Positions 4,573-44,499 of a stretch of 46,393 bases of DNA are shown here, one piece after another. Made by a program: the position numbers and the translations under genes. Location: the IMG/VR virus record IMGVR_UViG_3300034682_000402, positions 1-46,393 of that record; one strand, given 5' to 3'. Positions within the stretch are counted from its first letter, which is position 1. Every line of letters begins with the position of its first letter. Below the pieces are notes generated by a model that was given only the letters and a program-made list of their open reading frames with translations, was not told where the DNA came from and searched no databases. Source of the stretch: a virus.

Positions 4573-4720
4573 CCCTCTGCTGTCGTGCAGAGGGTAACGC
4601 CGCTTGTGCGGCGGGCTTTGCTGATCTTGGCAACCCGGTTTGCCTCACCCTTTGACCGTGTACGCACTTTGGCGGCTGGATACAGCGGGACACTGCGCGG
4701 AGCACCCGCCATGCCGGGTG
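4573..4720 (-). other. hairpin-rich leader, repeat-like
   Basis: Three compact inverted repeats: CCCTCTGC/GCAGAGGG (4573-4594), CGCCGC/GCGGCG with loop TTGT (4598-4613) and CACCCG/CGGGTG (4703-4720). On the minus strand the segment also reads as a peptide (KVRTRSKGEANRVAK...) that I recall as a widespread annotated hypothetical in Beta- and Gammaproteobacteria. That suggests a conserved structured element rather than a unique gene. The recollection is unverified. Confidence 0.4.
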
Positions 4721-4840
4721 ACGCTATGGCGCCGGACGAACCCCAAACCTGGGCTGGGGAGCAACATCGGCAGTGCAGGGCGAGAGCGGATAGGGAAGGC
4801 GTTGCAGTAAATTGCTCTGTCTCAACGCAGGGGAGGGGGC

Positions 4841-5416
4841 ATGACAAGGCAGAGCAGCACTGAAATCTACAAAGGGCAGCGCCAGAAAGAAAAAAGGCTG
4901 TTGTACCGGTGTTTTCCGTTTCGCGCCCTTGAGCGGCTTTGCAAGGCTAGGTTCTTCGCCTTGTTTGGCAACAAATGCTTTAAATGCGGGGCTCCAGAGC
5001 TACCGCCGCGTGTGAACTGCTTTCCGGTTTTGTGTATGGACCACCACATACCGATGGTTCTTGGGGGCCGGCTGGAGCCAGGCAACATCGTCGCGCTGTG
5101 TCGGCGCTGTAACGAGCAAAAGCTTGATCAGCCCCCTGAGCAGTTCTACACCCCCCAGGAGCTTGCACAGTTACCGGCAATCTTTGCGCAGCAGGCGGCG
5201 CTGTTTGACTTCGCTTTTGATGAGGAGGCCTGGCTGCAAGACCCCACAGCCTATCTTGTCAGCCTTGGGCTGGATGAGGAACTGGTTGAGCAGTTGCTGC
5301 ATGACGAGCTGCATCCTGACTACATCGGCATGCCTGATCCCCGGCGGATCGAATTCACCATCTCTATGGATGTCAGCAGTTTGCTGAAAGACTTCGGCAA
5401 GGACACTGCTGGCTAG
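4841..5416 (+). CDS. HNH endonuclease
   Basis: A 191-aa protein with an HNH core: C46-x2-C49 (CFKCG), D67-H68-H69 (CMDHHIP), N82 (PGNIVALC), C87-x2-C90-N91 (CRRCN). The paired CxxC motifs would bind structural zinc and the DHH/N residues a catalytic metal. A long acidic helical C-terminus follows (EEAWLQDP...DEELVEQLLHDE), outside the nuclease fold. The start has an excellent purine-rich site (GGGGAGGGGGC-ATG). It lies on the strand opposite to the leftward early operon, inside the leader expected from the PL-like promoter. It could be a homing-type or packaging-associated HNH, or a moron nuclease. Confidence 0.85.
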   Translation: MTRQSSTEIYKGQRQKEKRLLYRCFPFRALERLCKARFFALFGNKCFKCGAPELPPRVNCFPVLCMDHHIPMVLGGRLEPGNIVALCRRCNEQKLDQPPEQFYTPQELAQLPAIFAQQAALFDFAFDEEAWLQDPTAYLVSLGLDEELVEQLLHDELHPDYIGMPDPRRIEFTISMDVSSLLKDFGKDTAG

Positions 5417-21724: not shown

Positions 21725-21811
21725 ATCACGCCCGTAAGCGTGATCTGGGCTTGGTCGCCCGGTAGTCAAGGCGCAGCAGCCGCGCCACAAACAAGTTGGT
21801 TGCGGCTTTTT
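21725..21811 (+). ncRNA. C4-like antisense RNA upstream of rha1
   Basis: A -10 element TATAGT (21713-21718, in GGGGTATAGTTA) would start a short RNA at about 21725. It has a TCACGC/GCGTGA hairpin (21726-21743), a segment at 21750-21771 complementary to the downstream leader at 21893-21912 (two blocks of 7 bases and one of 4), and an intrinsic terminator AGCCGC/GCGGCT-TTTT (21778-21811). The order of antisense segment, terminator, target and antirepressor-type gene is that of phage C4 RNAs. The -35 is weak. Confidence 0.6.
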
Positions 21812-21983
21812 GCTTTCTAAGCGTGTCTGCGCACGCACACGGCTCCGGTTTACGGTGGGCCGTGTGGGGACACCCGCAAGGGTGTGCCGGATCCTTGACC
21901 CGGTCGACCAACCCTGCACGGTCCACCACCTTCTCTTGGTCGGGGAGGTGATGGGTTCAAAACTCGTCGTCAAGGAGCCTGTC
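21812..21983 (+). promoter_or_regulatory. structured leader of rha1
   Basis: Contains the target of the upstream short RNA (CCTTGACCCGGTCGACCAAC, 21893-21912), a hairpin GACACCC/GGGTGTG near 21870-21886, and pairing of CCACCACCT with AGGTGATGG near 21921-21953. An in-frame upstream ATG (21951) with a too-close GAGG precedes the preferred start, which has AAGGAG six nt before it. Confidence 0.5.
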
Positions 21984-22808
21984 ATGGCTGACACCTCTCT
22001 CGGTTCTTCTGCATCCGCCGTTTCCGCTCGCCCTGAGCTTTCGATCCACAACGGCATCGTCACCACCACCAGCGTTCAAGTCGCACAGTTCTTTGGCAAG
22101 CGCCATGACAACGTGCTGCGTGCGATCCGTGTTTTGCTCCGTGAAGGTGCGTCTGCGGATTACCTCCTCAATTTTGAGGAGGTAATCATGGACTTCACGA
22201 ATGGCAAGGGTGGCGTGCAAAGTGGCACTGCCTACCGCATGACCCGTGAAGGCTTCATGCTCCTCGCCATGGGCTTCACCGGCAAAGAGGCGCTGCGCTG
22301 GAAGCTGGCCTTCATCGCCGCCTTCAACCGGATGGAGGCCGAGCTGCAAAAGCCCGCCTACGACCCCGCCCGCATCCAGCTGGCCCACAGCCTGGCCGCT
22401 CAGGCCGCCGCGCAAGTCACCCAGACCGTGTTTGATGCCATTGCCTCCGGCCGCGACAGCGACTGGCGCCGCGTGCGCTACCTGCTCAGCTTCGGCTACG
22501 ACCGCGACGGCCAGCCCACCATCCCCCAGGCGCAGGTGGTGGGGGATGACCAGATGGTCACCTCCCTCAACGCGCTCATCCAGCACATCACCAAGCACGA
22601 CGTCATCCCCTCCGACGCGCAACTGGCCGCGCTGGTCACCGCCTGCGCCCAGCAACTCTCCGAACGCGCCCAGGTGCGCGAGTTGCGCGCCGCCACCAAA
22701 GCCAGCGCTGCCCCAGCCTCCACCGCTGTGGCCGCGCCCATACCACCCCACATCGGGCTCGACGGCAAGCCACTGCCCCCCGGCACCTTCCGCGCCGTGT
22801 TTGTATGA
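21984..22808 (+). CDS. rha: Rha-family phage regulator 1
   Basis: A 274-aa protein. Residues about 20-115 match the pRha family: LSIHNGIVTTTSVQVAQFFGKRHDNVLRAIR, LLNFEEV, YRMTREGFMLLAMGFTGKEALRWKLAFIAAFNRMEAEL. Rha proteins are antirepressor-like phage regulators; lambdoid rha products interfere with growth in some hosts. The C-terminal 150 residues (DWRRVRYLLSFGYDRDGQP...) are shared with the second Rha at 43.4 kb, ending in the same DGKPLPPGTFRAVFV. ATG 21984 follows AAGGAG. A 14-bp perfect inverted repeat lies inside the gene before an internal Met69 with its own Shine-Dalgarno. Confidence 0.9.
   Translation: MADTSLGSSASAVSARPELSIHNGIVTTTSVQVAQFFGKRHDNVLRAIRVLLREGASADYLLNFEEVIMDFTNGKGGVQSGTAYRMTREGFMLLAMGFTGKEALRWKLAFIAAFNRMEAELQKPAYDPARIQLAHSLAAQAAAQVTQTVFDAIASGRDSDWRRVRYLLSFGYDRDGQPTIPQAQVVGDDQMVTSLNALIQHITKHDVIPSDAQLAALVTACAQQLSERAQVRELRAATKASAAPASTAVAAPIPPHIGLDGKPLPPGTFRAVFV
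22158..22187 (+). repeat. perfect inverted repeat covering an internal ribosome-binding site
   Basis: GATTACCTCCTCAA-TT-TTGAGGAGGTAATC: 14-bp arms with a 2-nt centre. The right arm contains GAGGAGGT five nt before an in-frame ATG (22188, Met69 of Rha). As RNA the arm would hide that Shine-Dalgarno. Confidence 0.8.
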
Positions 22809-43398: not shown

Positions 43399-44202
43399 TC
43401 ACACAAACACCGCGCGGAACGTGCCGGGTGGCAGGGGCTTGCCATCGTGGCCGATGCGCGGTGATACGGGTGCTGCCACGTTGGCCGGTGCCGCAGTTGG
43501 GGCGGAAGCCGCCACCGCAGTGGTTGCGCGGCGCTCGCGGATCTGGGCGCGTTCGGACAGGCGCTGGGTGCAGGCCGAGGCCAGGGCCGCCAGCTGCGTG
43601 TCGCTGGGCATGATGTCGCCCTTGGCAATGTGCTGCGTCAGCTCGGGCAGGGACGCAATGATTTGCCCATCGGTCACCGCCTTGGCCAGCGGCAGGCTGG
43701 GCTGGCCGCTTTGGTCGTAGCCAAAACTCAGCAGATAGCGGGCGCGGCGCCAGTCGGCGGTGTTGCCGGACAGCACCGCATCCAGCACCGTTTGCATCAC
43801 CTGCGCGCCGGCTTGGCTGGCCAGCGTTTGGGCCAGTTGCAGGCGCTGGGCGTCGGGGGCGGGTTGCTTTTGCAGCTCAGCCTCCATGCGGTTGAAGGCG
43901 TCGATGTAGGCCAGCTTGAATGCCAGGGCCTTCTTGCCGGTGAAGCCCATGGCCAGCAGCGTGAAGCCGTCGCGGGTGAGGCGGTAGGCGGGATAGCGTT
44001 GACCGTTTTGCTCGTCTGTTACATGGGTCTCCTCAAAATTGAGGACACCCCCTGTAGTTAGCTGAGGGAGAAGATTGCGAATGTCGCGCAGTACGTTGGC
44101 GTGCAATTTGCCAAAGTAGCGCGCCAGGTCAGTGCTGAGGGTGGTGGGTTTGCCGTCAACGACGGTGATGGCGGGCGAGATAGCCAGTGCGGACTGAGAC
44201 AT
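43399..44202 (-). CDS. rha: Rha-family phage regulator 2
   Basis: A 267-aa paralogue of the product at 22 kb. The N-terminal pRha domain is ITVVDGKPTTLSTDLARYFGKLHANVLRDIRNLL, LNFEETHV, YRLTRDGFTLLAMGFTGKKALAFKLAYIDAFNRMEAEL. The C-terminal half is aligned throughout with Rha1 (DWRRARYLLSFGYDQSGQPSLPLAKAVTD) and ends identically. ATG 44202 has GGAG seven nt upstream (GGAGCACCTT). It is preceded by a C4-like leader and followed by palindromic element C. The N-terminal region differs more than the C-terminal one, so target specificity may have diverged. Confidence 0.9.
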   Translation of the reverse strand: MSQSALAISPAITVVDGKPTTLSTDLARYFGKLHANVLRDIRNLLPQLTTGGVLNFEETHVTDEQNGQRYPAYRLTRDGFTLLAMGFTGKKALAFKLAYIDAFNRMEAELQKQPAPDAQRLQLAQTLASQAGAQVMQTVLDAVLSGNTADWRRARYLLSFGYDQSGQPSLPLAKAVTDGQIIASLPELTQHIAKGDIMPSDTQLAALASACTQRLSERAQIRERRATTAVAASAPTAAPANVAAPVSPRIGHDGKPLPPGTFRAVFV

Positions 44203-44390
44203 AAGGTGCTCCGTGATGAGACTTGTGAAGCCTTGCCACAGCGTTCTTACGCACTGAGACAAGGTGGCCGGGAGGTTAAGAACCTAGATCACGCTAGGCG
44301 GACTTCTTCCCCTTGCGGGTGTTGTATCCGTCGCCCTCCCGGCCAAAAAATCAGCACCTGCAAGGGGGCAGGCGCGCAATGTCCGGGCGC
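44203..44390 (-). promoter_or_regulatory. structured leader of rha2
   Basis: Contains the target GCGTGATCTAGGTTCTTAACC (plus 44274-44294 as its complement), which can pair with the upstream short RNA. A 10-bp stem GGCCGGGAGG / CCTCCCGGCC joins 44335-44344 to 44266-44275. A second copy of GCGTAAGAAC (44243-44252) gives an alternative partner for TTCTTA. Mutually exclusive pairings could expose or hide the rha2 start. Confidence 0.5.
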
Positions 44391-44465
44391 AAAAAAACCG
44401 CCAACTATCGGGTGCGGTTCTTCCGCGTGATCTAAGGAGTTCTTACGCTCCATCTCTTTCGAGAC
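44391..44465 (-). ncRNA. C4-like antisense RNA upstream of rha2
   Basis: A short RNA predicted from a TTGCCT-16-TATACT promoter, starting near 44465 and ending at an intrinsic terminator (AACCGC/GCGGTT, then seven T; plus 44391-44420). It carries GTAAGAAC and TAGATCACGC (plus 44425-44448), complementary in two blocks to the rha2 leader at 44274-44294. Same order as at 21.7 kb, with different sequences. Confidence 0.6.
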
Positions 44466-44471
44466 CGCGCC

Positions 44472-44499
44472 AGTATAGCGTGTGTTGTGGGAGAGGCAA
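44472..44499 (-). promoter_or_regulatory. promoter of the rha2 leader RNA
   Basis: Minus strand TTGCCT (plus 44494-44499), 16-nt spacer, TATACT (plus 44472-44477). Confidence 0.5.

Follow-up and report, generated by a model that had tools for sequence, protein, structure and literature searches.

The window analysed here, a stretch of 46,393 nucleotides (nt) of the virus record IMGVR_UViG_3300034682_000402, carries on its minus strand, just before the gene rha2, what is very probably a complete C4-type antisense switch for this gene, built on an RNA of the sRNA-Xcc1 family. This reading is carried by the anatomy of the module, by a covarying RNA structure, by the matching of complementary blocks to their own targets across homologous loci and by the adjacency of antirepressor genes. 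The order of the elements is a promoter, a short RNA with two target blocks (a1 and b1) and a terminator, a folded RNA with their complements (a' and b'), a second pair of target blocks (a2 and b2) and rha2; the names of the blocks follow phage P1 usage. The promoter, the blocks of the short RNA, the T7 terminator, the leader blocks, the stem of 10 base pairs (bp) and the second copy of GCGTAAGAAC had been named in an earlier note on this DNA, and all of them were located on the minus strand where it had placed them. The features of the module, each with its basis, are the following.

44472-44499, minus strand: sigma-70-like promoter TTGCCT-16-TATACT (9 of 12 consensus matches; consensus match alone)
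About 44388-44466, minus strand: short IsrK-like RNA with a 5' hairpin, a hairpin carrying a1 in its loop, single-stranded b1 and a terminator (fold against shuffles)
44439-44445, minus strand: a1 block TAAGAAC, complement of a' (block pairing, homologue comparison)
44425-44436, minus strand: b1 block CTTAGATCACGC, complement of b' (block pairing, homologue comparison)
44388-44427, minus strand: intrinsic terminator of the short RNA, with T7 (fold, T-run conservation)
44354-44375, minus strand: second terminator-like hairpin with T6, directly before the folded RNA (terminator-like hairpin scan)
44258-44344, minus strand: putative antisense RNA of sRNA-Xcc1 type (C4-like), two hairpins inside a 10-bp outer stem (RF02221 score, fold, covariation)
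44344-44335/44275-44266, minus strand: 10-bp outer stem GGCCGGGAGG of the folded RNA (complementarity)
44285-44294, minus strand: b' block GCGTGATCTA in the hairpin-2 loop region of the folded RNA (block pairing, homologue comparison)
44277-44283, minus strand: a' block GTTCTTA, single strand between hairpin 2 and the outer stem (block pairing, homologue comparison)
44243-44249, minus strand: a2 block TAAGAAC in the rha2 leader (block pairing, homologue comparison)
44209-44217, minus strand: b2 block ATCACG, stretch ATCACGGAG, running into the Shine-Dalgarno GGAG of rha2 (block pairing, homologue comparison)
43399-44202, minus strand: rha2, ATG at 44202, 267 amino acids, Phage_pRha (PF09669, E 3.9e-30; Pfam)

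The target blocks of the short RNA, GTAAGAAC and TAGATCACGC, lie inside 44448-44425 (minus strand). In the predicted fold the second hairpin is GGAG...CTCC with TAAGAAC in its loop, followed by the single-stranded TTAGATCACG and the T7 terminator, and this is the fold of RF03163/isrK in P1 and Gifsy-1; none of 200 shuffles was as stable (z -3.75). The folded RNA (44344-44258) reaches -40.0 kcal/mol (z -3.6), and again 0 of 200 shuffles were as stable. Within it, TTCTTA stands directly 3' of GCGTGATCTA, and the second copy of GCGTAAGAAC, near 44252-44243 (minus strand), holds a2. Concerning the strength of pairing, the 12-nt duplex CTTAGATCACGC/GCGTGATCTAGG amounts to -18 kcal/mol and the whole pairing of a1b1 with a'b' to -24.5 kcal/mol, a value matched by 3 of 500 shuffles. 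A further pairing, of CCCCTTGC (44367-44360) with hairpin 1, is present here and was discarded as a candidate, as it is unconserved in homologues (mean 4.8 nt versus 5.0 nt in shuffled sequences).

Comparison across homologous loci gives the strongest evidence. An exact pattern of the RNA core retrieved 48 viral contigs, two of which (L005 and L025) were dropped for want of a family-like fold; together with loci already in the set, the matches make up 40 distinct viral RNAs. Each RNA was scored by the summed length of ordered exact complements, with its own and with swapped partners. In the 40 viral loci, the upstream blocks scored 14.9 nt with their own partner and 7.7 nt with swapped ones, and the downstream blocks 13.2 and 7.1 nt; the own partner was the best of its row in 34 and 32 loci, respectively, and 0 of 5000 permutations reached the observed values in either case. 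A set of 36 bacterial, plasmid and phage loci, taken from RF02221-positive genomes, plasmids and phages and repeating a few viral records already counted, behaved in the same way (13.6 versus 8.6 nt upstream, 11.4 versus 7.3 nt downstream; 0 of 5000 each). When both sets were pooled and the repeats removed, 63 of the 73 RNAs had at least 6 complementary nt within 20 nt upstream of an ATG, versus 14.7% with swapped partners, and the best of 10000 permutations gave 23. The permutations do not model relatedness; related loci share blocks and raise the swapped score, so that kinship makes the swap test conservative. Hence the pairing blocks are conserved in homologous prophages, the point on which the earlier note had made its claim depend.

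Moreover, the helices of the folded RNA covary: the alignment of 36 RNAs shows two-sided changes at 14 of 23 pairs, with a score of 0.297 versus 0.105 after shuffling (0 of 500). Of 37 homologous loci, 28 have a T-run after b1, compared with a background of 6% in random stretches. Regarding distribution, RF02221 is above its cut-off in 12 of 369 genomes drawn from one class, and a similar RNA was found in 161 of 5426 E. coli genomes. Other approaches were less informative. Duplex swaps scored by energy only were dominated by GC-rich stems, so that the downstream signal was weak, and they were replaced by the ordered two-block scoring. Searches with the Rha2 protein reached just two viral loci and one genome, too few for comparison, blastn of the Rfam consensus in plasmids found little, and the consensus that RNAalifold derived for the short RNAs was poor, with 3 pairs, so the resulting model was left unused.

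The genes that follow these RNAs are frequently of the antirepressor type. The rha2 protein itself matches PHROG families of Rha-like regulators and anti-repressors. Among the 40 viral loci, the next gene belongs to Phage_pRha in 9, Bro-N in 8, KilA-N in 4 and P22_AR_N in 2 (Pfam), and PHROG matches add further anti-repressor families. Annotated antirepressors stand downstream in the Bordetella phage vB_BaM-IFTN1, in Rac-SA53 and in two E. coli prophages. In four chromosomal loci (L065, L067, L090 and L091), SymE toxin genes lie directly 3' of the RNA, with the complements of a' and b' (a2/b2) at the symE start, and attC-like palindromes adjoin one of them (L090). On an IncL/M plasmid (L055, 1998-2976), an sRNA-Xcc1-type RNA lies roughly 900 nt 3' of blaOXA-48 and precedes a KilA-N gene. 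Many short open reading frames (70-150 amino acids) of no Pfam family occupy the target position in L009, L029, L047, L079, L092 and others.

Taking these results together with what is described for P1 and Gifsy-1, the switch could work as follows. A single promoter (44499-44472) would give a short terminated RNA with a1 and b1, and read-through transcripts would continue into the folded RNA (44344-44258) and then rha2. The antisense RNA would be cut out of the long transcript as for P1 C4, where RNase P cuts at a GG motif according to work cited in PMC5320573; the 5' end of the rha2 folded RNA, GGC, resembles the motif reported there. Its exposed b' (hairpin loop) and a' (single strand) would pair with b2 at the Shine-Dalgarno and with a2, blocking translation of rha2, and the antirepressor-like Rha2 would thereby stay low during lysogeny. 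The short RNA would offer a copy of the target, a1 plus b1, whose pairing with the antisense RNA is the stronger one and which probably titrates it, releasing rha2. The antisense repressor is probably the downstream folded RNA, and the upstream short RNA a decoy or activator; this role is suggested by analogy, since short IsrK supplied in trans activates translation of its read-through transcript (about 139-fold for anrP; PMC4825925).

An alternative mechanism would be attenuation in cis only, in which the nascent a1b1 pairs with a'/b' of its own transcript and switches the folds without any free antisense RNA acting in trans. The distance from a1b1 to a'b' on the read-through transcript is about 100-150 nt and their pairing is strong, and alternative cis structures (A and B) have been reported at isrK (PMC4825925). 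However, a pure a1b1/a'b' fold has no need of b2 at the Shine-Dalgarno, which is kept in 63 of the 73 loci, a terminator separates the short and the folded RNA, and sRNA-Xcc1 was mapped in Xanthomonas as a discrete 88-nt RNA (PMC2996969), so this mechanism seems unlikely. The folded RNA could also be mainly a trans-acting small RNA (sRNA) for host genes, virulence-related or vesicle-borne as in the published view of sRNA-Xcc1/sXF, with rha2 adjacent by accident. HrpG/HrpX control sRNA-Xcc1 in Xanthomonas, and the Xylella homologues occur in vesicles with predicted targets elsewhere (PMC12444791; PMC12189769). Nevertheless, in the 73 RNAs a' and b' vary together with the leader of the adjacent gene, and no fixed host target could track such changes, which makes this possibility very improbable. 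That the blocks are by-products of GC-rich terminators and a duplicated leader, devoid of antisense function, is hardly credible: terminator-like hairpins are abundant here and a degenerate duplication could account for a1b1 and a2b2, but the complements of a' and b' vary between loci yet match within each, swapped pairs fail (0 of 5000), and bacterial loci read on the wrong strand, an informal negative control, gave weaker block matches.

Concerning family membership, the folded RNA of rha2 scores 67.3 bits with the Rfam covariance model of sRNA-Xcc1 (RF02221), above the gathering score of 53. It nevertheless has the architecture of C4, two hairpins within an outer stem with a' and b' exposed, and its layout, upstream and on the same strand, with a2/b2 at the Shine-Dalgarno of an antirepressor-type gene (Phage_pRha). 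Likewise, the short RNA follows the layout of c4-a1b1: it has two hairpins, the second with a1 in its loop, then b1, and is complementary to the RNA that lies downstream. The description of the rha2 copy as "C4-like" holds for layout and architecture and, judged by the models, fails for membership of the C4 family. The model R1, derived from rha2 RNA homologues, finds the rha2 RNA and its relatives but none of the C4 RNAs, whether from the window, from Gifsy-1 or from P1. Because neither model detects the members of the other, the rha2 RNA is best regarded as one that would work like C4 without belonging to its family, and Rfam does not place sRNA-Xcc1 in one group with C4. Matches to mir-8515, snoU83B and mir-1231 were judged to be chance.

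In hairpin 1, the internal loop and tetraloop ATACAA.ACCCG.AAGGGGAAG (44327-44306, minus strand; columns 18-39 of alignment A2) are nearly invariant in sRNA-Xcc1-type RNAs. The strict invariance in A2 was imposed by the search pattern; a similar core is present in most loci found by the model. This core is a candidate protein or tertiary contact.

Several points weigh against the interpretation as a C4-type switch. The rha2 leader gave no match to the C4 (RF01695) and c4-a1b1 (RF03163) models at E<=5, and common descent of the sRNA-Xcc1-type RNA with C4 is not supported by either the Rfam models or R1. The a2/b2 pairing of rha2 (7+6 nt), taken alone, is not significant, as 95 of 500 shuffles reach the same value, and it becomes convincing only through the comparison across homologues. 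About half of the downstream open reading frames in homologues have no Pfam match. Furthermore, the IsrK data were explained by their authors through a cis structure in orf45 and not through C4 (PMC4825925), and the rha2 switch is a prediction from sequence.

The window contains a second module of this kind, before rha1 (21725-21983, plus strand), with the following features.

21742-21812, plus strand: short RNA of rha1, with a1 TTGGTCG at 21751-21757 and b1 GTCAAGG at 21765-21771 (pairing, fold; isrK 20.9 bits, below threshold)
21848-21933, plus strand: C4 antisense RNA of rha1, with b' CCTTGAC at 21893-21899 and a' CGACCAA at 21905-21911 (RF01695, 66.2 bits, gathering score 45)
21936-21977, plus strand: a2 TTGGTCG at 21936-21942 and b2 GTCAAGG at 21969-21975, overlapping the Shine-Dalgarno of rha1 (pairing)
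21984-22808, plus strand: rha1, ATG at 21984, 274 amino acids, Phage_pRha (Pfam)

The b2 stretch of rha1 is GTCAAGGAG (21969-21977, plus strand). The elements follow the same order as at rha2 with different bases, and the RNA of rha1 is a true Rfam C4 where that of rha2 is sRNA-Xcc1. The proposal of a second module with the order and the pairing kept and the bases changed is thus borne out by the block matching and by the anatomy of both leaders. Cross pairings between the modules fall inside the shuffled range, so cross-silencing of one by the other is not predicted by the pairing model. A 9-mer, GCGTGATCT, occurs both in the 5' hairpin of the short RNA of rha1 (21725-21746, plus strand) and in the b' loop of rha2 (44286-44294, minus strand); it has four copies in the window versus 0.24 expected, and one of these copies is the complement of b1. 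This sharing could reflect either cross-talk or chance. With a C4-type module for one Rha paralogue and an sRNA-Xcc1-type module for the other, this phage offers an insulated pair for tests of specificity. Elsewhere in the window, a Burkholderiales-2 RNA (RF02917, 80 bits over 67.9), a cis-regulatory motif, was found at 4697-4771 (plus strand), upstream of an HNH endonuclease gene (4841-5416).

Among known systems, the closest is C4 of P1 and P7 (RF01695; targets a1b1, RF03163, and a2b2). It presents the same order of a1-b1, antisense RNA, a2-b2 and regulatory gene (the P1 record annotates a1, b1 (putative), C4, a2, b2, icd and ant1), the same two hairpins in an outer stem with b' in the hairpin-2 loop and a' single-stranded, b2 at the Shine-Dalgarno and control of an antirepressor-type gene. 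On the other hand, hairpin 1 of the rha2 RNA has, unlike that of C4, the nearly invariant internal loop (AUACAA..ACCCGNAAGGGGAAG), and the module targets rha directly, without an icd-like leader gene.

IsrK of Gifsy-1, a Salmonella RNA, is, like the short RNA of rha2, terminated, located just upstream of a C4-type RNA and an antirepressor, and built with a1 in a hairpin loop, single-stranded b1 and a terminator. However, the short RNA of rha2 scores 18.2 bits with the isrK model (RF01394), below the gathering score of 50, as does the a1b1 region of P1 itself (35.1 bits), and activation in trans would be by analogy here. In Gifsy-1 (L057, 34131-34329, minus strand), isrK (34316-34240) overlaps c4-a1b1 (34329-34277) and is followed by C4 (34214-34131), before the antirepressor. 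The element order shared with P1 and Gifsy-1 supports the reading of a C4-type switch for rha2. The C4 match of Gifsy-1 lies inside the region described as orf45, a link not found stated in the literature searched. Because of this overlap and position, the experiments published on IsrK may have tested the function of the a1b1 decoy already; for P1, the annotation calls the role of this decoy no more than "putative". C4, c4-a1b1 and IsrK/orf45, named separately, are joined in one layout.

The rha2 RNA shares its core with sRNA-Xcc1, the Xanthomonas integron sRNA, and its membership is established by the curated score. In the literature, sRNA-Xcc1 is a virulence-regulated trans sRNA without a known target, whereas here it belongs to the leader of a phage gene and has a defined target next to it. 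In Xanthomonas integron cassettes, a 2025 survey located it before symE and suggested a divergent mechanism, with the target unnamed (PMC12444791). No published target was found, nor any paper linking sRNA-Xcc1 with C4-type control, in a search of papers available without subscription, so that prior recognition is possible; the single paper with both terms gives separate Rfam annotations in Xylella. The comparison points to a specific target that can be tested, namely the ribosome-binding site of whichever gene follows (phage antirepressor, or symE in integron-type cassettes), and from sequence comparison the likely function of sRNA-Xcc1 would be antisense control of that gene. More broadly, there is good reason to regard sRNA-Xcc1 RNAs as a second large class of C4-type switches, each with a private target pair, a2b2, where ribosomes bind the following gene, and a private a1b1 decoy upstream; they would have spread from phage antirepressors to plasmids and integron cassettes, where they would control the toxin SymE as RNA antitoxins that bring along their own anti-antitoxin RNA. 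Finally, sar RNA of P22 and SymR likewise exert antisense control, of an antirepressor and of SymE, respectively. Both are encoded opposite their targets, whereas the rha2 antisense RNA lies upstream on the same strand and carries two short split blocks.
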